Origin: a virus
Length of the DNA: 34,618 nucleotides
Strand: one strand, 5' to 3'
IMG/VR virus record: IMGVR_UViG_3300025674_000172
Location: 1 to 34,618 of that record
Of this stretch, positions 12,776-23,550 are shown piece after piece. Position 1 is the stretch's first letter. Each line of letters opens with the position of its first letter. A program made the translations under genes and the position numbers. The notes under the pieces are model-generated. The model worked only from the letters and a program-made list of their open reading frames with translations. It did not search any database and was not told where the DNA came from.

Positions 12776-15109
12776 TTAAGACAACAGATACTTCATACGC
12801 TTTACTGCCGAGACATCTAGGTCTCCAAGTTCCGGCACGGATGGAAGTTCTGCGGTCGGGTTATTGTTGATTTGCTCCATTCGGAACTCAGTCAGGAGAT
12901 CAACAGAAAAAGTTTTAGTGTATGCTTCACGCACCATTCTGTGTATTTGTTTAGCGTTACTTGCGTGTGTCACGAAACAGTCATGTATAGTAGCCAAGTC
13001 AAAGTCAACCTCATTAGCGACCTGATGTACAATACAAGCGTCAAGACTGTGGATAAAGTTAGCAGTCACTGCGTTGCCGTGGTGCTTAGTATCTATCTCA
13101 TCTGTCTCAGCGTAGGTATTTAAATATACAGTAGTGTTATCAAATACAGATTCTATATTTAGTTTCTTATACTTACGAAAGCTCTGCTTAACTTTAAATC
13201 CTGTAGGTGTTGTCCAAGTAATACCGTTTTCGTAAGGTAAGCATCGGATGGTCTGCCGTAAATACTTCATTACTTTCTTTACTGGTTCACACACCTCATC
13301 TGCTATCTTGTTTATGATATTACTGATCCATATGACAGCAGTTAACATCTCACCTGTGCTACTCCACGGATGATTGATACCTATACTCTTAAACAAATCC
13401 TGTACTAAGTTATAACTAGTAGCTCCATACGGACGGTTCATCACTGCCATCTTAGCAATCTTTCTTTTGATACCGTATTGCATCCAAGCCTTGGCAATAA
13501 CACCACCGTCTTTCTTCAGCTCATCATAGATACGATCAGCTACATACTGGTACATGTCATTAGCTTGGTCTTCTTCCACTAGGTTGCACATGCGTCCGAT
13601 CTCTTTGTCTCGTAATAACAAGCTCAGTATCTGCATGCCATTATTACTACAGTCCTGACGCACAGGTAGGTAGCTAACATATCCGTATCCTTCTTCGGTA
13701 AACTTCTTAAACTCTAAACAGAATCTCAGAAAACAGAACGGATCACTTGCATCAGTCCACCAATCAGTACCGTGTGGATCATTCGCTGCCTCAAGGATAA
13801 AGTTCTGTCGCTTACCTACCCACTCTAGTCGTTCCTCTCGTGTACCCTTCACTCCCCACATGTTCGCTCCGTGTACAAGTACAGCTTCCAAGTCCTCTTC
13901 ATCCACCACTTGCTGACCGTTATTAAAGTCTAACAAACTCTTAGCCAAGTCAGAACCTTGTGGATGTAAATAGTAAGGCATAGCATAAATCCTGCCACGA
14001 TAGTCACAACGATACGGAAAGTATAACTTCTGCCACTTACTGTACATCTTAGCCAAGTGCAGGATGCGACAAGCTTGGAATCTTTTGGAGCTGTTACTAG
14101 CGTTAGTAGTCTTTATATCTTTTTGTTTTAACTTCCAGATAGTAAGTTCTTGCTCGTCTCCTCCTGTGTAATACGGTTGCTCAGGTATCTCTCCGAATTG
14201 TGGAATGTTACCAACTACTCGCTTGTTCTCCCAACACTTCAATGTAATATCTAACATCTCATCGTTGACCTGCCACTCCACCTTCTGCAATCGGTTACAA
14301 GCACGCATTACATGGTCGTAGTTATGATCTTCAAACCATTCAACAGGTTTACCAGTGAAGAACTTCTGTGCAGGTAGCTGTTCAATGTCGTATCCACCGC
14401 CTATCAATCCATGCCAATCAACTGGACGGTCAGGTAATGCCATCTTAAATACCTCCCCTGCTTCCTTCCACTTATCAAAGCGATGTATCCAATCTTTGAA
14501 CTGTCGGGTAGGTAATACAAAGCGTTCAACTCTTTTTAAATTAGTCTTACCTTCACGGAATCCTATCTCGAAAAGACCAGTCTGCTGTCTAATTTCTTCA
14601 AGCAACCAACAGCCTAAACTAACTTTGTTTCTGTGATCCCACAGTTCAAATCTTGTATCTTCATACTTATAGAACTGCTTGATCTTGCTCTGCTTTTTAC
14701 GGTCAGGTATAGCTAACAGGTCTTGCTTGTTATGGCTCAGGTTCTCAAGTGCATACTTCCACCTCGCTTCATTCTCAAATGCTTTACCTATCCTGTGTCC
14801 CATCTTTGCAATGGCTAGATGGTTGTCCAAGTTATTCAAGAAGGTACGCAAAGCAATAACAGCAATCTCGTATGGACACATATCCAGTACAAAGGTCAGG
14901 TAAAGAGGTGTTGTGTATCCTGGACTAGTGAACTGGTCAATGATGTGCTTCACTCTTTCCCCTAACTTCGGACACATACTCTGTAACATACGCTTGCACG
15001 ATGCTGTGTGACTAGACTCTCCCTCTTTGCGTAGCTTGGCTTGGCGGTTACGGTATTGTACCTTTCCCCACTCACGCATCCGTGCAATATGACTTCTTGT
15101 ATCAGTCAT
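12776..15109 (-). CDS. T7-type single-subunit RNA polymerase
   Basis: The gene encodes 777 residues from the ATG at 15109; the frame continues upstream to a TTG at 15166, which would overlap the previous gene by 65 nt and is less likely. Catalytic motifs are present: Asp 486 (RQDCSNNGMQ), Lys 553 and Tyr 561 (KMAVMNRPYGATSY, the spacing of T7 Lys 631/Tyr 639) and His-Asp 709/710 (ATIHDCF). The DYRGRIYAMP segment is also typical. It transcribes middle and late genes from phage promoters once the host enzyme has made the early RNA. The protein is shorter than T7 gp1 (883), as in many marine relatives. It overlaps the upstream small gene by 8 nt. Confidence 0.97.
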   Translation of the reverse strand: MTDTRSHIARMREWGKVQYRNRQAKLRKEGESSHTASCKRMLQSMCPKLGERVKHIIDQFTSPGYTTPLYLTFVLDMCPYEIAVIALRTFLNNLDNHLAIAKMGHRIGKAFENEARWKYALENLSHNKQDLLAIPDRKKQSKIKQFYKYEDTRFELWDHRNKVSLGCWLLEEIRQQTGLFEIGFREGKTNLKRVERFVLPTRQFKDWIHRFDKWKEAGEVFKMALPDRPVDWHGLIGGGYDIEQLPAQKFFTGKPVEWFEDHNYDHVMRACNRLQKVEWQVNDEMLDITLKCWENKRVVGNIPQFGEIPEQPYYTGGDEQELTIWKLKQKDIKTTNASNSSKRFQACRILHLAKMYSKWQKLYFPYRCDYRGRIYAMPYYLHPQGSDLAKSLLDFNNGQQVVDEEDLEAVLVHGANMWGVKGTREERLEWVGKRQNFILEAANDPHGTDWWTDASDPFCFLRFCLEFKKFTEEGYGYVSYLPVRQDCSNNGMQILSLLLRDKEIGRMCNLVEEDQANDMYQYVADRIYDELKKDGGVIAKAWMQYGIKRKIAKMAVMNRPYGATSYNLVQDLFKSIGINHPWSSTGEMLTAVIWISNIINKIADEVCEPVKKVMKYLRQTIRCLPYENGITWTTPTGFKVKQSFRKYKKLNIESVFDNTTVYLNTYAETDEIDTKHHGNAVTANFIHSLDACIVHQVANEVDFDLATIHDCFVTHASNAKQIHRMVREAYTKTFSVDLLTEFRMEQINNNPTAELPSVPELGDLDVSAVKRMKYLLS

Positions 15110-15335
15110 GGGCGTTATTAAACCATCCTCTTGGTAGCTGTCGTTGCTTGTTCGTGCGGTGTGCAATCAGGTTGCCGTCTTCATCACGGACATAGTTACC
15201 ATTCTTATCACGCTTAAATCCAGTGATCTCACACTCGCTCCAAAACTTATTCCAACCATTAGCAATAGCGTTGTGATCGACACTAGACCAATCAAATGGC
15301 AGGTCGGTTACACTTAACTCATAGTTTTCTATCAT
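15102..15335 (-). CDS. Early small protein directly upstream of RNA polymerase
   Basis: The gene encodes 77 residues, acidic at the N-terminus and basic at the C-terminus (FKRDKNGNYVRDEDGNLIAH, then TNKQRQLPRGWFNN). There is no membrane segment or known motif. Its stop overlaps the RNA polymerase start by 8 nt, so the two are probably translated together. Genes in this place in T7-like phages often tune the host polymerase, but nothing in the sequence shows that here. Confidence 0.75.
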   Translation of the reverse strand: MIENYELSVTDLPFDWSSVDHNAIANGWNKFWSECEITGFKRDKNGNYVRDEDGNLIAHRTNKQRQLPRGWFNNAHD

Positions 15336-15385
15336 GTAAAAGCTCGGTTCGTATGATGTCAGCTTCCGCTTCCCAAAAGATTCCG

Positions 15386-15559
15386 TTATTTCTCTCGTGG
15401 GTCTTTGATGTTGTGGTAGAACAGGTACTCTTCGATTTCTTCCTCGGTTTCAAGTACGCTAATATTTTCCAAGTGCTCTTCTTTTTCTCGTCTTTCTTTC
15501 TCTGCTTCATAATAGTGCTGTTCGTAAGGGTCGGTTAACCAGTTGTCGTAACTGCTCAT
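15386..15559 (-). CDS. Early small acidic protein
   Basis: The gene encodes 57 residues from the ATG at 15559, chosen because it overlaps the HNH gene stop as ATGA; an upstream GTG at 15610 is not needed. The protein starts MSSYDNWLTDPYEQHYY and continues as a highly charged, Glu-rich helix. No fold or function is recognised. Its position in the early block suggests host interaction or takeover, which is inference only. Confidence 0.7.
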   Translation of the reverse strand: MSSYDNWLTDPYEQHYYEAEKERREKEEHLENISVLETEEEIEEYLFYHNIKDPREK

Positions 15560-16386
15560 AAGGTTATGGTTTTGTAGTTGTTCATTAAGATTGTCAATAA
15601 AACATACCACGGAATCTTATCACCTTTTGCACAATTATCTTTCTCCCACAACGGCTGAAGATTCTGCCAGTTAAAACATACCTTTTGATGGCTTGGTTTG
15701 GTCAGGTCAAAGAATGCACACGGAATGATGTGATCGATATGCCAACCACCTCTGCCCATGTTATCCCATGTCATACCTTCAGTGAATTGTGACTCTAAGT
15801 GGTCTCTTACATGTTCTATAGTACAATCTAATAACTCCATAGACTTGAAAGCTTTCTCTCCAGCCTGCTTCTTTATAGCTTGCCTAATACAACCTGCTAG
15901 ATTCTTTTTCAACATAAACTCGGTATCATCCTTTTTACTTTCCCTATACTTTTTTGTGTATGCTTTACCTTTAGGTGTTTTAGAGTACTCTTTCATAAAG
16001 ATTCGATTCTTTTCATTCTTAATGTGTCGGTTCTCTAACCACCATTCATGCCTCTTAGCATCACATTTTTCTTTATTAATAACTTTGTACTCCCTCTGTT
16101 GAGGCAATATCCAGTGATTATTTTCTTCTCTATATTGTTTGTTGTATTCTTTTACATGACCTCGGTTTTCTTGTTTCCATTTTCTACTATCAGCCTTTAC
16201 TTTTTCATGTTTAGTTATGAAGTCTTGTTCTAACATCCACTTAGTAGCTTTAGAAAACCATAACAAACCTTTAACTTTCGGGTGTGCGTCACCTCGTTTA
16301 AACTTGCCTTCTACTTTTAATAGTTTTTGGTTTAGCTTACCTTTATTCTTACCACTCTGATGTATATATTTCTTAGGAATCTTCAT
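15556..16386 (-). CDS. HNH homing-type endonuclease
   Basis: The gene encodes 276 residues from the ATG at 16386, which has the purine-rich AGAGAG upstream; a TTG at 16443 would lie inside the previous gene. The C-terminal third carries the HNH core: WHIDHIIPCAFFDL, then CFNWQNLQPLWEKDNCAKGD. The N-terminal two thirds are a very basic string of helices with recurring Lys/Tyr/Glu patterns, typical of DNA-contact modules in phage HNH enzymes. Such free-standing endonucleases usually act as selfish mobile genes that cut relatives lacking them. The DNA is visibly richer in A on the coding strand than its neighbours, in line with separate ancestry. It fits into the operon by overlaps at both ends. 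Confidence 0.9.
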   Translation of the reverse strand: MKIPKKYIHQSGKNKGKLNQKLLKVEGKFKRGDAHPKVKGLLWFSKATKWMLEQDFITKHEKVKADSRKWKQENRGHVKEYNKQYREENNHWILPQQREYKVINKEKCDAKRHEWWLENRHIKNEKNRIFMKEYSKTPKGKAYTKKYRESKKDDTEFMLKKNLAGCIRQAIKKQAGEKAFKSMELLDCTIEHVRDHLESQFTEGMTWDNMGRGGWHIDHIIPCAFFDLTKPSHQKVCFNWQNLQPLWEKDNCAKGDKIPWYVLLTILMNNYKTITL

Positions 16387-16591
16387 CTCTCTCGATCCTT
16401 TCAAGGTGTTCTTTGTATAATTGTAAGGACAGGTACAAGTCAAGCCATCTTCCGTCCAACTCTCGGTTCATATCGTTATTAAAAATATGGAACATCAGTT
16501 CCTCGGTCATGTCGATTGGGTCAAGTAATAGTTCAGTCGCTACGCTCCTATCGCATTTACTCACTCTGCTCGCTAAATGCTCTTCTTTCAT
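16373..16591 (-). CDS. Early small protein with a repeat-rich N-terminus
   Basis: The gene encodes 72 residues. The body is helical and acidic (IDMTEELMFHIFNNDMNREL, then LYKEHLERIERDEDS). Residues 7-19 (ASRVSKCDRSVAT) are coded by DNA dense in small palindromes and contain an 11-base sequence that recurs in another early gene at 17129-17139, so this end may be an inserted repeat. The start overlaps the upstream stop as ATGA; the stop overlaps the HNH gene by 14 nt. Function is unknown. Confidence 0.7.
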   Translation of the reverse strand: MKEEHLASRVSKCDRSVATELLLDPIDMTEELMFHIFNNDMNRELDGRWLDLYLSLQLYKEHLERIERDEDS

Positions 16592-16776
16592 AATATGGAC
16601 AGGTAACCTTCAGGTTCTACTAATGATTTAAAGTGTGCTTCTACATCGTCATTTTCCGTGACATCTTCCCACTCTTCATTCTCATCTCGGTCTCGGTTAA
16701 TTACTTCTAGCACTTCATCTAGTGTCCAGTTAAATATCTTGTTAGTTTCGTTGTCTTTTATTTTATATAGTTTCAT
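16588..16776 (-). CDS. Early small acidic protein
   Basis: The gene encodes 62 residues: MKLYKIKDNETNKIFNWTLD, then a run of Asp/Glu (RDRDENEEWEDVTENDD). It is strongly acidic, which in T7-like early regions can mark DNA-mimic inhibitors, but nothing else supports that. The start is in the context GAGAACT-ATG without a Shine-Dalgarno. It ends in an ATGA overlap with the next gene. Confidence 0.72.
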   Translation of the reverse strand: MKLYKIKDNETNKIFNWTLDEVLEVINRDRDENEEWEDVTENDDVEAHFKSLVEPEGYLSIL

Positions 16777-16789
16777 AGTTCTCGGTTTA

Positions 16790-16861
16790 TTAATCTCGGT
16801 ACATCCATGCTGTAAAGACGATGCATACGATCATCAAGCAAAATAAGGTGAGGCTGTCCAT
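16790..16861 (-). CDS. 23-residue single-membrane-segment peptide
   Basis: A complete short frame fills the only gap between two early genes. It codes for a Met-Asp-Ser start, about 15 hydrophobic residues (LTLFCLMIVCIVFTAW) and a charged MYRD end, that is, a minimal transmembrane peptide. The ATG is 3 nt after the upstream stop, and the frame ends 13 nt before the next start. The purine-rich GAAAGAGAA lies upstream. The tight fit and clear membrane character argue for a real gene; its size makes this uncertain. Confidence 0.5.
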   Translation of the reverse strand: MDSLTLFCLMIVCIVFTAWMYRD

Positions 16862-16864
16862 CGG

Positions 16865-17044
16865 TTAGTTTTCTCTTTCTACTTGTCGGTTAAGTAGCTC
16901 GTCCTGCAATTCAATCAATCGATCACGGACACGTACGCTATCAGGTAGCTTTTCACGGACAGTTAAGTAATGATCGATAAGCGTTTGCAAGCTCGGTTCG
17001 TCAAGCGTTTCAAGGTGTTCTGGATTAGTGTTATTCAAAGTCAT
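16865..17044 (-). CDS. Early small helical protein
   Basis: The gene encodes 59 residues from the ATG at 17044; the frame is open to a TTG at 17104, which would overlap the previous gene deeply. The protein reads MTLNNTNPEHLETLDEPSLQ, followed by an amphipathic Leu/Arg/Glu helix (VRDRLIELQDELLNRQVERE), so a coiled-coil dimer is possible. The start overlaps the upstream gene by 14 nt. Function is unknown. Confidence 0.65.
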   Translation of the reverse strand: MTLNNTNPEHLETLDEPSLQTLIDHYLTVREKLPDSVRVRDRLIELQDELLNRQVEREN

Positions 17045-17342
17045 GATCGATACATCTTGTGCCTTCGTTCTCCATCCCTTGCAAGCTTTTATCGCAAACA
17101 TCAAAAGTTTTAACAGGTACTCTGTTGTTCGCTACGCTCTCAGCGTCCGCCTTCGGCTTCCTGTTTCGATAGTATTGTTTAAGTTTGTCTTTGATGTCTT
17201 CCATCATCGCTTCCTTTGACGCTATGTTAGTTCCACTGATCGGTAACTGACGACACCCCCACGCAATAAATGGCATGGAAGAGCTGTGAGAATCGATCCG
17301 GTAATAGAAGGTCATGTTTTGGTAGATAAATGATACGCTCAT
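17031..17342 (-). CDS. Early hypothetical protein
   Basis: The gene encodes 103 residues from the ATG at 17342, which follows the stop of a 17-codon frame after a single base; ATGs at 17357 and 17351 are alternatives. The N-terminal half looks globular (MSVSFIYQNMTFYYRIDSHS); the C-terminal half holds the repeat-coded stretch KADAESVANNRV and a cysteine-containing acidic tail. No family is recognised. The repeat-coded piece could be a later insertion. Confidence 0.65.
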   Translation of the reverse strand: MSVSFIYQNMTFYYRIDSHSSSMPFIAWGCRQLPISGTNIASKEAMMEDIKDKLKQYYRNRKPKADAESVANNRVPVKTFDVCDKSLQGMENEGTRCIDHDFE

Positions 17343-17343
17343 A

Positions 17344-17397
17344 TTATTCATCAACATCTTGGACTAAATAACAAGGTTTGTAATGTTCTATTTTCAT
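17344..17397 (-). CDS. 17-residue mini-cistron linking two early genes
   Basis: A complete frame (starting MKIEHYKPC, ending QDVDE) begins in an ATGA overlap with the upstream gene and ends as TAATATG, one base before the next start. It exactly bridges two genes. It could encode a real micropeptide, could act only as a translational relay, or could be the remnant of a longer gene. Confidence 0.35.
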   Translation of the reverse strand: MKIEHYKPCYLVQDVDE

Positions 17398-17663
17398 GCT
17401 TTCCCTTTCAAGTTATAGATTCCACGGGCAATAGTTGTCCCGCAGACATCATGATTTGTCACAGCTTGCCCTAAAAAATCATGCGTAGACTGATAGGATG
17501 TCTTAACAAGGTTGCCCTTTGAATCGTATGTTTTAAAGCATTCCGTGATCGTGCAAACCTTAGCGTTCTTTCTTCCCATTGGCAGGTATTGAGTTCCGAT
17601 TGGATATTTAAGGCTTTCTTTTTCCATCATGCGGTTTTGATAGTTCTGTAAATGTGTATTCAT
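17394..17663 (-). CDS. Conserved-looking early protein, unknown function
   Basis: The gene encodes 89 residues from the ATG at 17663; the frame extends upstream to a TTG at 17726 inside the previous gene. The protein contains KYPIGTQYLPMGRK, VCTITECFKTYDSKGNLVKT and FLGQAVTNHDVCGTTIARG, a small beta-rich pattern I associate with hypothetical proteins of marine phages. There is no Shine-Dalgarno; the region before ATG reads CTATCTATCAAA. It has no known role. Confidence 0.75.
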   Translation of the reverse strand: MNTHLQNYQNRMMEKESLKYPIGTQYLPMGRKNAKVCTITECFKTYDSKGNLVKTSYQSTHDFLGQAVTNHDVCGTTIARGIYNLKGKA

Positions 17664-17685
17664 TTTGATAGATAGGTAAGTAAGG

Positions 17686-17835
17686 TTAAGAGAATAAGAT
17701 ACTGGCAAGGATACAACCCCACGCAACGGCTAAGGTAATGATAACGCCATATTCAAGGCATTGATCTACTTTGCTAGGTTTCATCCAGTTAAGATTGATT
17801 TGATTATCTTTAAGTTTTTCTGTGGAGATTTTCAT
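17686..17835 (-). CDS. Small single-pass membrane protein
   Basis: The gene encodes 49 residues from the ATG at 17835, four bases after the upstream stop; the frame is open to a GTG at 17889. A polar, basic N-terminus (MKISTEKLKDNQINLNWMKP) is followed by one C-terminal membrane segment (VIITLAVAWGCILASILFS). Such early membrane peptides may alter the host envelope or exclude other phages, but this is only a possibility. Confidence 0.68.
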   Translation of the reverse strand: MKISTEKLKDNQINLNWMKPSKVDQCLEYGVIITLAVAWGCILASILFS

Positions 17836-17839
17836 AAGA

Positions 17840-18022
17840 TTAGTTGAATAAAGGATTTTTGGATATTCGTGTGAGTTTACGCTGTGCACCTATAAAGGTT
17901 TTACAATGAAAGGTGAAATCGTTGTAAGTAACTTTTACCTCTTCTTGCTTTGTAATGGTGTTGTAACAAGTGTGAATGCGTCCACCTCTATAAGGTGTAG
18001 TATTAAAGCAATTCTTGCTCAT
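17840..18022 (-). CDS. Early small basic protein
   Basis: The gene encodes 60 residues with three cysteines (CFNTTPYRGGRIHTCYNTIT, then FTFHCKTF) and a basic C-terminus (GAQRKLTRISKN). A small beta fold is likely. The start overlaps the upstream stop as ATGA, which fixes it. No known motif is seen and the cysteine spacing does not fit a standard zinc finger. Confidence 0.7.
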   Translation of the reverse strand: MSKNCFNTTPYRGGRIHTCYNTITKQEEVKVTYNDFTFHCKTFIGAQRKLTRISKNPLFN

Positions 18023-18333
18023 GAAAACATCTCCCCGTTTTGTGCTAAGATTTCAGCGTGGTATTCTTCAGCTAAGTTTTGAGCTACTAAGTCCCTGACA
18101 AGTTTAGTAAATGAATAACCAAATTGCTCCTTGTAGTCGTTAGAAGCTAACAAACAAACAGCATAATAAGCTTTTGGAGCTTTGGTCATGTCAAAGACAT
18201 TCTTTTTAATCTTGCGTTGAAAGTTCTTAGCAATCGGCACAAGAAAGCGTTCGTAGTATGTGCCAGTGTTTTCAATCCATAACTGAAGCTCTCTGACTTC
18301 ATGGCGTACTGATTCAATAGTTTCTTTATTCAT
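18019..18333 (-). CDS. Early helical protein, unknown function
   Basis: The gene encodes 104 residues from the ATG at 18333; the frame is open to a GTG at 18393 within the upstream gene. The protein is mostly helical and charged (ETIESVRHEVRELQLWIENT, later YSFTKLVRDLVAQNLAEEYH). No motif is recognised. The upstream context is A-rich (AAAACAAAATACATC) with no Shine-Dalgarno, as in several neighbours. Confidence 0.7.
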   Translation of the reverse strand: MNKETIESVRHEVRELQLWIENTGTYYERFLVPIAKNFQRKIKKNVFDMTKAPKAYYAVCLLASNDYKEQFGYSFTKLVRDLVAQNLAEEYHAEILAQNGEMFS

Positions 18334-18370
18334 GATGTATTTTGTTTTATTGGGTTGATAGTAGTTTGAA

Positions 18371-18607
18371 TTAAGAGTTTGCAAATTGCACACCTACAAC
18401 ATCAACAACATTGCAAGGCAAGCCAAACTCGGGAGTAGTGCAGAAATATTCTGACTCGTCCAAAATGTCCCAAGTGTCAATGTAGTGCTCCCTAGCAAGA
18501 AAAGCATCGATGTTGTCAATGTCGTCTTGCTCAAGACCGCTGTCGTCTCCGTTGTAGATATAGCTAAGTGCATAACTAGGTATTTGATAGGTGTATTCGT
18601 TATTCAT
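18371..18607 (-). CDS. First gene of the early block, small acidic protein
   Basis: The gene encodes 78 residues: YTYQIPSYALSYIYNGDDSG, LEQDDIDNIDAFL and a C-terminal PEFGLPCNVVDVVGVQF. The pattern IPSYAL, NGDxSGLExDD followed by a Gly-x-x-Cys end resembles a short protein family found in phages and bacteria (annotated DUF6926, from memory). It is very acidic. A GGTGAGG lies two bases before the ATG. It follows the long early leader and is probably the first gene read by host RNA polymerase. Confidence 0.72.
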   Translation of the reverse strand: MNNEYTYQIPSYALSYIYNGDDSGLEQDDIDNIDAFLAREHYIDTWDILDESEYFCTTPEFGLPCNVVDVVGVQFANS

Positions 18608-19089
18608 GCCCTCACCATTGCCACAAACTTGTCAATACTTCCATCAAAAAATATTCAAATGATGATTGTATAAGTTCAACTTATCACAGCTATTAGATCG
18701 ATAGAGAGTAACTGCTTATTGATACTGAGACTCAATTGAGACTTAGAACATCGAAAGAGAAAAGAACATACAAGACCAAACGCAATAAGATTGCATCTAG
18801 ACAGCTCCAGACTGATGACGCAAACAGCCGTTTATTCCTGTTGATTTGCGAAAAAATAACAACGATTTGATGCTTGATTTTAGTACAAATACACTAACCT
18901 GTTGTAAGTACCTGATAATCAACAAATCTAATTAGACATAATACATAAATGGCGAAGTCAATACCCCCCTGCTATAATAATCTTAGGGGTGGCCAAGGGG
19001 GAATGAGCGGTGCCGTATATAGCGTAAGCCTCTCAGATTTTTCTGCTAAAAACTTTTCTAGGAATGATCTATATAAGTTAGAGTCTTAA
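18608..19089 (-). other. Long non-coding leader ahead of the early block
   Basis: No convincing gene is seen in these 482 bases on either strand. On the minus strand the region holds a run-of-C/run-of-G patch (19001-18964), a Syn5-like promoter candidate, several weak -35-like hexamers (for example TTGACT at 18961-18956 and TTGACA near 18633), a small GCAAT/ATTGC hairpin at 18794-18782 and an A/T-rich remainder. In T7-like phages, early host-type promoters and the terminal repeat lie here. The exact promoter and the terminal repeat cannot be defined from one sequence. Confidence 0.6.
18982..18997 (-). promoter_or_regulatory. Candidate phage RNA polymerase promoter, Syn5-like
   Basis: The minus strand reads CTTGGCCACCCCTAAG. 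The published Syn5 phage promoter, as I remember it, is ATTGGGCACCCGTAA followed by G; 13 of 16 positions agree. It lies in the non-coding region near the genome ends, facing the early and RNA polymerase genes. I found no second copy in the other gaps, which keeps confidence low. Confidence 0.35.
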
Positions 19090-21654: not shown

Positions 21655-23550
21655 TTATGGTGCTTGTGTTTTATATGGGTGTGAAGATGGTAGGTCTGCT
21701 GTTAATCCCCACTTGTGTGCTAAGTATCCTTCGATCTTATCAGAGTTTGATTGTGTTACATCTTCAACGAATACAACCTCCCCCCAATCAGAGTCAGCGT
21801 TGTTCTGATAATCGTTCAGTCTTACTGACATAGCACCCATTGTGGATAGTCCTGACTGAGTAACATTGGTGTTATAAGCTGTACCGTTTAGAGCTAAAGT
21901 TGCACGAGTGTTAGGAATATCCATTTCAGCAGACAGCATAACCCATTGGTTTAATAGGTTAGTCGAGTTGCCTGTCATGTTATTACCGGGATTCATGTAC
22001 CAATCACCTGAGAATACACCAGCACCACTCATGTTAAACATAATCATCTGTAGGGTTGGGTTGCTCTTTGTGAATGTAACCAATGCATCGTGAGTATCGG
22101 AAGCTGTTACCTTGACCACAAAGAACCATTTATGAACAGCAGTTGAACTAAACCCTACACTCGTGTATGAAGTTGCATCTGAGTTGTTATCAAACCTAAG
22201 TATATTTTTGTTGTTCTGTGCTGTGTTAACCGCTGTGAGTGTGCTACCTGATTGAGCGTTAAAGGTGTATCCATTGCCTGACTTGTCTGCGATTGCTGTG
22301 ACATTACCACTAGATGAAGTAAAGGTAGTCTGATCGTCCATGTCTAACCACAAACGAGTTGTAATAGATGATGGGTCCCAAGCTGCGTTGGTAGAACCGG
22401 ATATAGCTAATTGCATCTGATCAGCATAAGCTTCACCAATGTCAAACATATCGTTTACACCGTTGCTGTTAGTATCTGTATTACCAGCTTTTCCTACATG
22501 ATTGTTACTTGCTGAGTGCCCGTAAGTAGCTGAATCTACAATTCCAACATATGCATCAGCACTAGCAACAGGCGTAAGGTCGGTACCATATCCAATCTTT
22601 GTTATTACAACAGGGAACTGAGATGTATTAGACACCCCGTATGAATTGCCTAGTACCGTGCGTACTGCTGCTATAAATGTATTAAGACCACTAACTGAAG
22701 CACCACTCTCTCCTTGCCACCATATCATACCTTTGAAGTTCCAAGAGTAACCTGCGTTGGTTAGCTTGGTGGTAGCATCTGACAGTGCGGAAAGTAAACC
22801 ACGATAACAGTCACCTTCTCTGGAACCTGTAGCTGTGGTATCCCAGTCAGAAAGAGATGTACCAGCGTTAAGGGTGGATGCACCTACTGCGTATTTAAGA
22901 ATACCTATAGGTTGTGTGGTGAGATTGATTGCTTTTGCTCTACTAACAAATCCAAGCTCAGGACCAAAGTAAGGAGAATTTACTAAGTTATTACTGTCTC
23001 CTCTTGTGCTACCTGCTACTAATGAAGTTGCCCAGTTAGAGTAGTTTTGTGTGGTCTCAGCGTTAGAAGTACTGTCATGCCAGGAGGTATAGAACAATCC
23101 ATCTTGTGTTGATTGCCCTGATGTAAGGCTAGATACATCTCCCTCACCATGTGCATTCGACTGACCAGCTAATATAAATAGATCGATTGTTTGGTTTGTT
23201 ATTACTGAATTATCGAAAGTTCTGTACCAACTACCGTTATAGAAGTAAGACATCGTAGGAGTGCCTCCTATTGTACCGTCTGTGACTAGAGCGTTAGTAC
23301 CTGCCGTAGCAGCTAGTGGTAGGTTAGCTTTAGTGTAAGTCTGTATAGATACACCATCAGCACCGTCCGCACCTGTTGGTCCTTGTGGTCCTTGAAACTG
23401 AGATAAAGAGTTCCACGGAGTCGTCCCGTCACCAACCTTAAGTATGTGATTGGTAGTATCAAACGCAGGTTCCCCTTCGGAAAGGACAGGGTTGGTACTG
23501 GCAAAGTTACTGGCAGAATCCCGTCTTAGAAATATGCGTCTAATACTCAT
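21655..23550 (-). CDS. Tailspike-like SGNH/sialate O-acetylesterase with collagen and LamG-like parts
   Basis: The gene encodes 631 residues. Residues 1-55 resemble N-terminal attachment modules of phage fibers (FASTNPVLSEGEPAFDTTN, HILKVGDGTTPW). A short collagen-like GPQGPTGADGADG follows (54-66). From about 122 to 385 lies an SGNH hydrolase: IDLFILAGQSN with nucleophile Ser 131, WWQGES (277-282), and a candidate His 351. A beta-rich LamG-like C-terminal part runs from about 395, with YLAHKWGL near the end. It probably binds and deacetylates host surface sugars; substrate unknown. The usual Asp-x-x-His pair before the last helix reads Asn-Asn-His here, so catalysis needs checking. The start overlaps the upstream stop as ATGA. 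Confidence 0.85.
   Translation of the reverse strand: MSIRRIFLRRDSASNFASTNPVLSEGEPAFDTTNHILKVGDGTTPWNSLSQFQGPQGPTGADGADGVSIQTYTKANLPLAATAGTNALVTDGTIGGTPTMSYFYNGSWYRTFDNSVITNQTIDLFILAGQSNAHGEGDVSSLTSGQSTQDGLFYTSWHDSTSNAETTQNYSNWATSLVAGSTRGDSNNLVNSPYFGPELGFVSRAKAINLTTQPIGILKYAVGASTLNAGTSLSDWDTTATGSREGDCYRGLLSALSDATTKLTNAGYSWNFKGMIWWQGESGASVSGLNTFIAAVRTVLGNSYGVSNTSQFPVVITKIGYGTDLTPVASADAYVGIVDSATYGHSASNNHVGKAGNTDTNSNGVNDMFDIGEAYADQMQLAISGSTNAAWDPSSITTRLWLDMDDQTTFTSSSGNVTAIADKSGNGYTFNAQSGSTLTAVNTAQNNKNILRFDNNSDATSYTSVGFSSTAVHKWFFVVKVTASDTHDALVTFTKSNPTLQMIMFNMSGAGVFSGDWYMNPGNNMTGNSTNLLNQWVMLSAEMDIPNTRATLALNGTAYNTNVTQSGLSTMGAMSVRLNDYQNNADSDWGEVVFVEDVTQSNSDKIEGYLAHKWGLTADLPSSHPYKTQAP

Follow-up and report, generated by a model that had tools for sequence, protein, structure and literature searches.

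Does the block of tiny genes ahead of a phage RNA polymerase (RNAP) gene possess an organization of its own, or does it simply gather functions for use against the host? We address this question in IMG/VR virus record IMGVR_UViG_3300025674_000172, analyzed over its full 34,618 bases (hereafter, the window). The window bears a T7-like gene set, comprising a single-subunit RNAP, a T7-type terminase, a tail fiber, a gp14-like protein, a primase-helicase, and DNA polymerase A, and its annotated genes all lie on the minus strand, to which the genes and elements located below also belong. Between a leader (18608-19089) and the RNAP gene (12776..15109; 29% identity to Pelagibacter phage RNAPs) are 14 open reading frames (ORFs; e01–e14), bearing out the tiny-gene block that a preliminary description of this DNA had placed there, and most of the small genes are under protein-level selection. 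The block probably represents the early operon of an uncultivated phage of the T7 type; by analogy with T7, it would be transcribed as one unit from the leader through the RNAP gene. Small genes also precede the RNAP in the early region of T7 (genes 0.3-0.7 before gene 1), but here we recognized no relatives of T7 early proteins, and the exchangeable pool is large. We show that the block is not a single class of genes but combines a conserved backbone with exchangeable cargo, that characteristic sequences mark the joints, and that two words are enriched on one strand of the early genes and RNAP. The joints and words, absent from the preliminary description, stand out as the more unusual features.

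Conserved backbone genes and exchangeable cargo

We fetched relatives through the RNAP, yielding 92 nonredundant loci with the window counted among them, located backbone genes in these using iterated profiles, and counted presence only where the contig reaches past the gene. The backbone order (e04, e07, e08, e09, often e11, e13, e14, and RNAP) is invariant, with 0 violations in the 92 loci. Its most constant members are e07 (17031..17342, 103 aa; 68/68 loci), e08 (16865..17044, 59 aa, isoelectric point [pI] 4.7; 79/80), e09 (16790..16861; 83/83), e13 (15386..15559, 57 aa, acidic pI 4.5; 89/89), and e14 (15102..15335, 77 aa, overlapping the RNAP start; 92/92). We found e04 (17686..17835, 49 aa) in 60 loci, and in 35/43 of those reaching beyond it, while e11 (16373..16591, 72 aa, pI 4.6), which has two allele types, occurs in 46/87. 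Given their presence in essentially every relative, the backbone genes are probably core rather than strain-specific counter-defense functions.

Ratios of nonsynonymous to synonymous polymorphism (pN/pS) for e04, e07, e08, e09, e11, e13, and e14 are 0.21-0.39 in frame (e04, 0.36; e08, 0.37; e13, 0.39; e14, 0.21) versus 0.83-2.94 out of frame. The 23-aa peptide encoded by e09 (pI 4.5) yields 0.29 in frame and 0.95 and 2.94 out of frame; its presence in all 83 loci scored, together with a low ratio in frame only, argues that this 23-codon gene is real and conserved. The two single-pass membrane peptides noted earlier correspond to e09 and e04 (maximum Kyte-Doolittle 2.5); the membrane segment of e04 is C-terminal. 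The acidity noted for several products likewise holds for e01, e08, e09, e10, e11, and e13 (pI 4.1-4.7); e03, e05, and e12 are basic (pI 9.4-9.8). Neighbors join by ATGA (−4) overlaps, as had been described, at e02/e03, e05/e06, e10/e11, and e12/e13, and by larger ones at e07/e08 and e11/e12 (−14) and e14/RNAP (−8). The smallest gene described, of 17 codons, exists as an ORF (e06, 17344..17397) but is the 5′ stump of a longer family and not a complete gene, since its longer homologues, the closest of them 86 aa (L048), run on past its stop. An overlapping 63-aa ORF (15510-15319) we judged to be a wrong frame of e13.

Comparison among loci indicates that the early block is mosaic. In e07, two N-domain types are combined with three C-terminal types, and alleles of e09 and e11 are mixed across RNAP lineages. 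The nearest relative also differs by gene of the window (e01, 96% in L009; e02, 96% in L013; e08, 96% in L016; e11, 94% in L025; RNAP, 93% in L002), and a search of the phage collection gave no near DNA relative.

Cargo in the window comprises e01 (18371..18607, 78 aa, pI 4.1; 4 loci; pN/pS 0.08-0.51), e02 (18019..18333, 104 aa; few loci; 0.07-0.13), e03 (17840..18022, 60 aa; 5 loci; 0.13-0.34), e05 (17394..17663, 89 aa), e10 (16588..16776, 62 aa, pI 4.2), and the HNH gene e12 (15556..16386, 276 aa); pairwise pN/pS over e01–e03 spans 0.07-0.51. Because e05 and the orphan e10 lack relatives in the 92 loci, what speaks for their coding status is the ORF itself, joined for e05 by matches to phrog_28041 (E 1.9e-11) and to Polaribacter phages P12002L/S. 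The e12 product is HNH/endonuclease VII-like (phrog_1035, E 7e-8; no Pfam match above cutoff), and the gene is an optional insertion, as e11 and e13 overlap directly, by 4 nt, in many loci lacking it. Cargo across the 92 loci falls into 260 families, of which 148 are single-member, built from 745 gene calls that were made mechanically and include spurious leader ORFs. Judged from these families, the pool is open and exchangeable.

Profile searches left most early proteins without a known family, as had been proposed, and known functions are few among 149 cargo representatives. Those in relatives' cargo include two C5-methyltransferase members, GP88, a queuine tRNA-ribosyltransferase family (phrog_887), QueD, a nucleoside deoxyribosyltransferase, and a sigma-70 region 4 protein. 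The preliminary description assigned host takeover and anti-defense to the region. Position and relatives' cargo lend this plausibility, and an anti-defense role is plausible for the slots because relatives carry DNA methyltransferases and probable DNA-modification genes there; the claim does not extend to the window's own genes, none of which convincingly matches a defense or anti-defense family in general profile libraries (no dedicated anti-defense library was searched). A CARF-HEPN match of e02 (E 0.003) was too weak to accept. The region does qualify as a place for new biology, being early-type and filled with small proteins mostly of no known family. Three loci (L067, L057, and L076) carry a three-gene insertion between e14 and RNAP, encoding QueD, a nucleoside deoxyribosyltransferase, and a protein like queuine tRNA-ribosyltransferase, which is perhaps a 7-deazaguanine DNA-modification cassette.

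Slot linkers and a hairpin element at the joints

The sequence AACCTTACCTGACC (L1) stands before start codons, most often at 0-9 nt, and mostly in the gap that separates one gene's stop from the next gene's start. Upstream of RNAP, the sense strand carries 42 exact copies and the other strand 0, and downstream there are 0. In the leader-e04 slot, L1 accompanies 0/132 families, against 24/91 in the e04-e07 slot (≤2 mismatches; p=6e-11); spurious leader ORFs dilute the former count, and the families derive from single linkage. L1-like matches downstream of the RNAP start, where examined, are orthologous RNAP coding stretches. A second linker, CAATAAACACCAAAA, occurs mainly in the leader-e04, e07-e08, and e04-e07 slots. 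In the window, a degenerate L1 (CCTTACTTACCTATCTATCAAA, 17664..17685; compare TAAACCTTACCTGACC-ATG) precedes e05, and a linker resembling the second (18334..18370, holding CAACCCAATAAAACAAAATACATC) precedes e02.

A separate hairpin element of 43 bp, its stem five pairs long, occurs 56 times in the clade and 0 times in a reversed control. In the 18 distinct copies, pairing holds in 97.8% of stem cells, with 21 two-sided changes, versus ≤53% in slid controls. Copies well inside genes (e04, e07, e08, and e11) keep to one reading phase, the exception being a short ORF where RNAP starts in L019. The window's copy (core 16536-16578) lies within a 51-bp in-frame insert (16532..16582) after the third codon of e11, and L126 displays the empty site, ATGAAAGAA|CTATTACTT. 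The predicted RNA fold of this insert is no more stable than shuffles, and support for the hairpin is covariation, not energy. Among 2.9 million viral contigs, strict L1 and hairpin patterns match this clade and no other, and the hairpin pattern had no match in a bacterial and archaeal genome collection. In 19 loci (e.g., L048, L049, and L044), the element overlaps with the region around the RNAP start, and its stem variants there stay paired. At nearly the same place in e11, L009, L016, L036, and L053 carry another in-frame insert of ~54 bp with an inverted repeat (GTGTTAATCGGGCGAAGCAAGTTAACAC). The window's e07 linker holds a further in-frame repeat (GCGGACGCTGAGAGCGTAGCGAACAACAGA, 17121..17150), similar to one at the e08 C-terminus in 9 loci.

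It is possible, though short of an even chance, that L1 and the hairpin serve translation initiation or mRNA processing and are not recombination joints. The position of L1 directly before start codons would suit such a role, as would the paucity of Shine-Dalgarno-like sites in early genes (42/658), and the start-associated sequences (SAS) of mycobacteriophages have been discussed in that light (PMC3203893). Limitation of L1 to one slot, which rules it out as a general ribosome site, and the occurrence of hairpins inside coding sequence argue otherwise. The two roles can coexist.

Known systems resemble these joints in part. SAS and extended SAS of Cluster K mycobacteriophages are likewise short conserved sequences upstream of a subset of non-structural-gene starts, some with inverted repeats (PMC3203893), but theirs is a 13-bp sequence, GGGATAGGAGCCC, at start codons and differs from those here, where the linkers are slot-dependent and the hairpin, distinct from them, also inserts inside genes. 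T4-type PeSL cassettes (Arbiol 2010, Comeau 2014, as cited in PMC4503421) share stem-loop elements in shuffled regions; PeSLs fuse an early promoter to the stem-loop, whereas the likeness shown here concerns the stem-loop, with elements in frame inside genes of a T7-like phage. Rickettsia palindromic elements (as described in PMC10969869) are also dispersed palindromes inserted in frame in unrelated protein genes; those here are shorter (43-51 bp vs ~150 bp) and restricted to a phage clade.

Two strand-specific words in early genes and RNAP

Over-represented k-mers yielded two words, AACCGA and ACCTG[AT]CC (ACCTGWCC). On the coding strand of the window, all 13 AACCGA and all 6 ACCTGWCC sites fall within 2.7 kb (16998-14296) that run from e08 into RNAP. 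AACCGA occupies 14291..16998 (first bases 16998, 16891, 16866, 16787, 16698, 16468, 16167, 16032, 15536, 15449, 15349, 15309, and 14296) and occurs nowhere else on that strand in 34.6 kb, with 2 copies on the other (5919 and 24442). ACCTGWCC (first bases 16604, 16434, 15707, 14901, 14708, and 14435) is absent outside 14428..16604 on either strand. AACCGA is the top 6-mer of the window, with a log-likelihood ratio of 57 versus 16-28 for the best 6-mers in four other T7-like phages (an Ayaqvirus, CRP-171, HTVC109P, and T7), and ranks first in three of four long relatives and fifth in one. Across the clade it is the most domain-specific and strand-asymmetric of the ranked 6-mers, with 915 sense copies in the domain, 7 on the other strand, and 18 (scaled) in late DNA. 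Its sense-strand density is ~3-4 per kb from −2,000 to the RNAP start and an uneven 0.1-2.3 per kb inside RNAP; the opposite strand has 0-0.1 per kb, and both strands are low farther away. Overall, the stretch of sense strand rich in the two words reaches from about e04-e08 into RNAP.

Shuffles holding protein and codon usage constant provided expectations. Against these, the words are enriched 3-20x in early genes and RNAP: AACCGA at 623 vs 225 and 309 vs 88, respectively (2.8-3.5x), and ACCTGWCC at 220 vs 43 and 119 vs 6. AACCGA is missing from late downstream genes (0 vs 24.1 expected). In genes >2.8 kb upstream, AACCGA shows a weak effect (17 vs 14), as it does in the small set of late upstream genes (5 vs 7.7). 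Words of the same or similar composition, counted as controls, stay close to expectation, save ACCGAA in early genes (1.45) and AGCCAA in late genes (1.74). AACCGA appears in all three reading frames and at intergenic sites, in 109 dissimilar contexts, and this mixture argues that constraint acts on nucleotides. Where the amino acids of RNAP are the same, the word is kept above the codon-usage prediction, e.g., 56/60 vs 9.8 expected, an expectation that ignores phylogeny and an effect inflated by relatedness.

From these patterns, the words look like an undescribed early-gene signal, and they are most likely a mark of early mRNA, with somewhat better odds than a signal in DNA. Such a mark fits the restriction to the sense strand, the approximate coincidence with the early transcription unit, and the avoidance by late genes. 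Bacteriophage T4 offers an analogy: its RegB cleaves early mRNAs at the word GGAG, which marks them for inactivation, and late mRNAs are not substrates (PMC3014915). Here too the words belong to early genes, and AACCGA is avoided late, but they are AACCGA and ACCTGWCC, not GGAG, and are common inside coding sequence. No RegB-like gene turned up, although no search aimed at regB was made.

Several points weigh against this interpretation and the operon model built on it. The reverse complement of AACCGA is depleted in early genes (4 vs 12.4) and RNAP (5 vs 25.4), which a signal acting only in RNA would not predict. AACCGA is mostly missing from genes before e04, though they are expected on the same early transcript, and the shortfall of ACCTGWCC in late genes (0 vs 2.1) does not reach significance. 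We identified no RNase or RNA-binding partner for the words. Related sequences within the clade are not independent samples, and recombination at the joints is deduced from sequence rather than observed.

The depletion of the reverse complement keeps a different, if unlikely, account alive, in which the words are polar DNA signals: either Chi-like (TCGGTT / GGWCAGGT on the other strand), protecting the entering end from host exonuclease, or sites of a restriction system that requires opposite orientations, retained in a single orientation. Strict orientation favors it, as does the depleted reverse complement; against the Chi version, a pair of distinct words would be unusual. T7 shows a like bias, with its asymmetric type III site, CAGCAG, in a single orientation (0 against 36), and type III enzymes require interaction between sites (PMC3874151). 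Orientation bias alone, however, leaves unexplained both the 3-20x enrichment in the early unit and the same-orientation absence from late genes; the words here are enriched in one region and avoided elsewhere, unlike the T7 sites. A primase-site role was rejected, as the other-strand copies expected past an origin are missing.

It is improbable that the words are by-products of codon or dinucleotide habits in genes of common recent origin. Early composition may differ from late, and cargo and backbone recombine in one pool, but most of the signal is lost in codon- and protein-preserving shuffles, every reading frame and intergenic sites are used, and most control words are near expectation. 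Equally improbable is a mere bag of host-takeover and anti-defense genes, for although the T7-like position, the small proteins of no known family, and the DNA-modification genes in relatives' cargo would suit one, an invariant backbone, slot-specific linkers, and words common to backbone, cargo, HNH, and RNAP genes are not what it would produce.

Genome context and a proposed early-operon model

Other features of the window concern individual genes and the genome at large. The C-terminal domain of e07 is zinc-ribbon-like, with weak profile matches; a zinc ribbon would have CxxC plus C-x2-C/H, and the first Cys, present in 75/80 family members, is Phe in the window; this position adjoins an in-frame repeat, and the zinc site is possibly damaged. 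Structure searches of e07 and e14 gave no informative PDB match, with the e07 N-domain resembling only an uncharacterized marine virus protein. Gene order is permuted relative to the T7 type, with the terminase gene followed by the leader and early block, and 19749-18607 likely contains the physical genome end (a permuted contig). The leader holds a clade-conserved motif, ATTATGTCTAATT, near a G-run; its orientation differs between loci, and it may be a promoter or end-related element. Near the tail-fiber gene, 21655-23550 encodes a protein with Mtd N-terminal and SASA esterase domains. The window has no tRNA match and no Rfam match. Three routes to the host were set aside: methyltransferase relatives scatter across taxa and are unusable, e05, whose relatives are solely Polaribacter phages, hints weakly at Bacteroidetes, and scarce Shine-Dalgarno sites in early genes had only a small late set for comparison.

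As a whole, we consider it an even call that this is an early operon of backbone and cargo slots with clade-private joints and words acting in early RNA. Under this model, the operon would be read from the leader through the RNAP gene, and cargo, swapped by recombination at shared joints, would serve host-specific takeover and counter-defense. In early RNA, the words would be sites for a phage or host factor, such as a sequence-specific RNase or RNA-binding protein, letting the infected cell distinguish early from late mRNA, for example, to shut off early expression, and this would account for the avoidance of AACCGA by late genes. More tentatively, the words may form a distributed strand-specific code in which synonymous choice sets AACCGA and ACCTG[AT]CC at intervals of about 170 nt and late genes exclude the hexamer; its reader would handle early transcripts (or the early DNA end) differently from the rest of the genome.

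The backbone and cargo layout, including the universal 23-aa membrane peptide, separates core tiny genes from exchangeable candidates for counter-defense screens. Synonymous keeping of AACCGA in early genes and its purging from late ones imply that some recognition system acts on early phage RNA or DNA, and finding its reader could reveal a new step in control or defense evasion.

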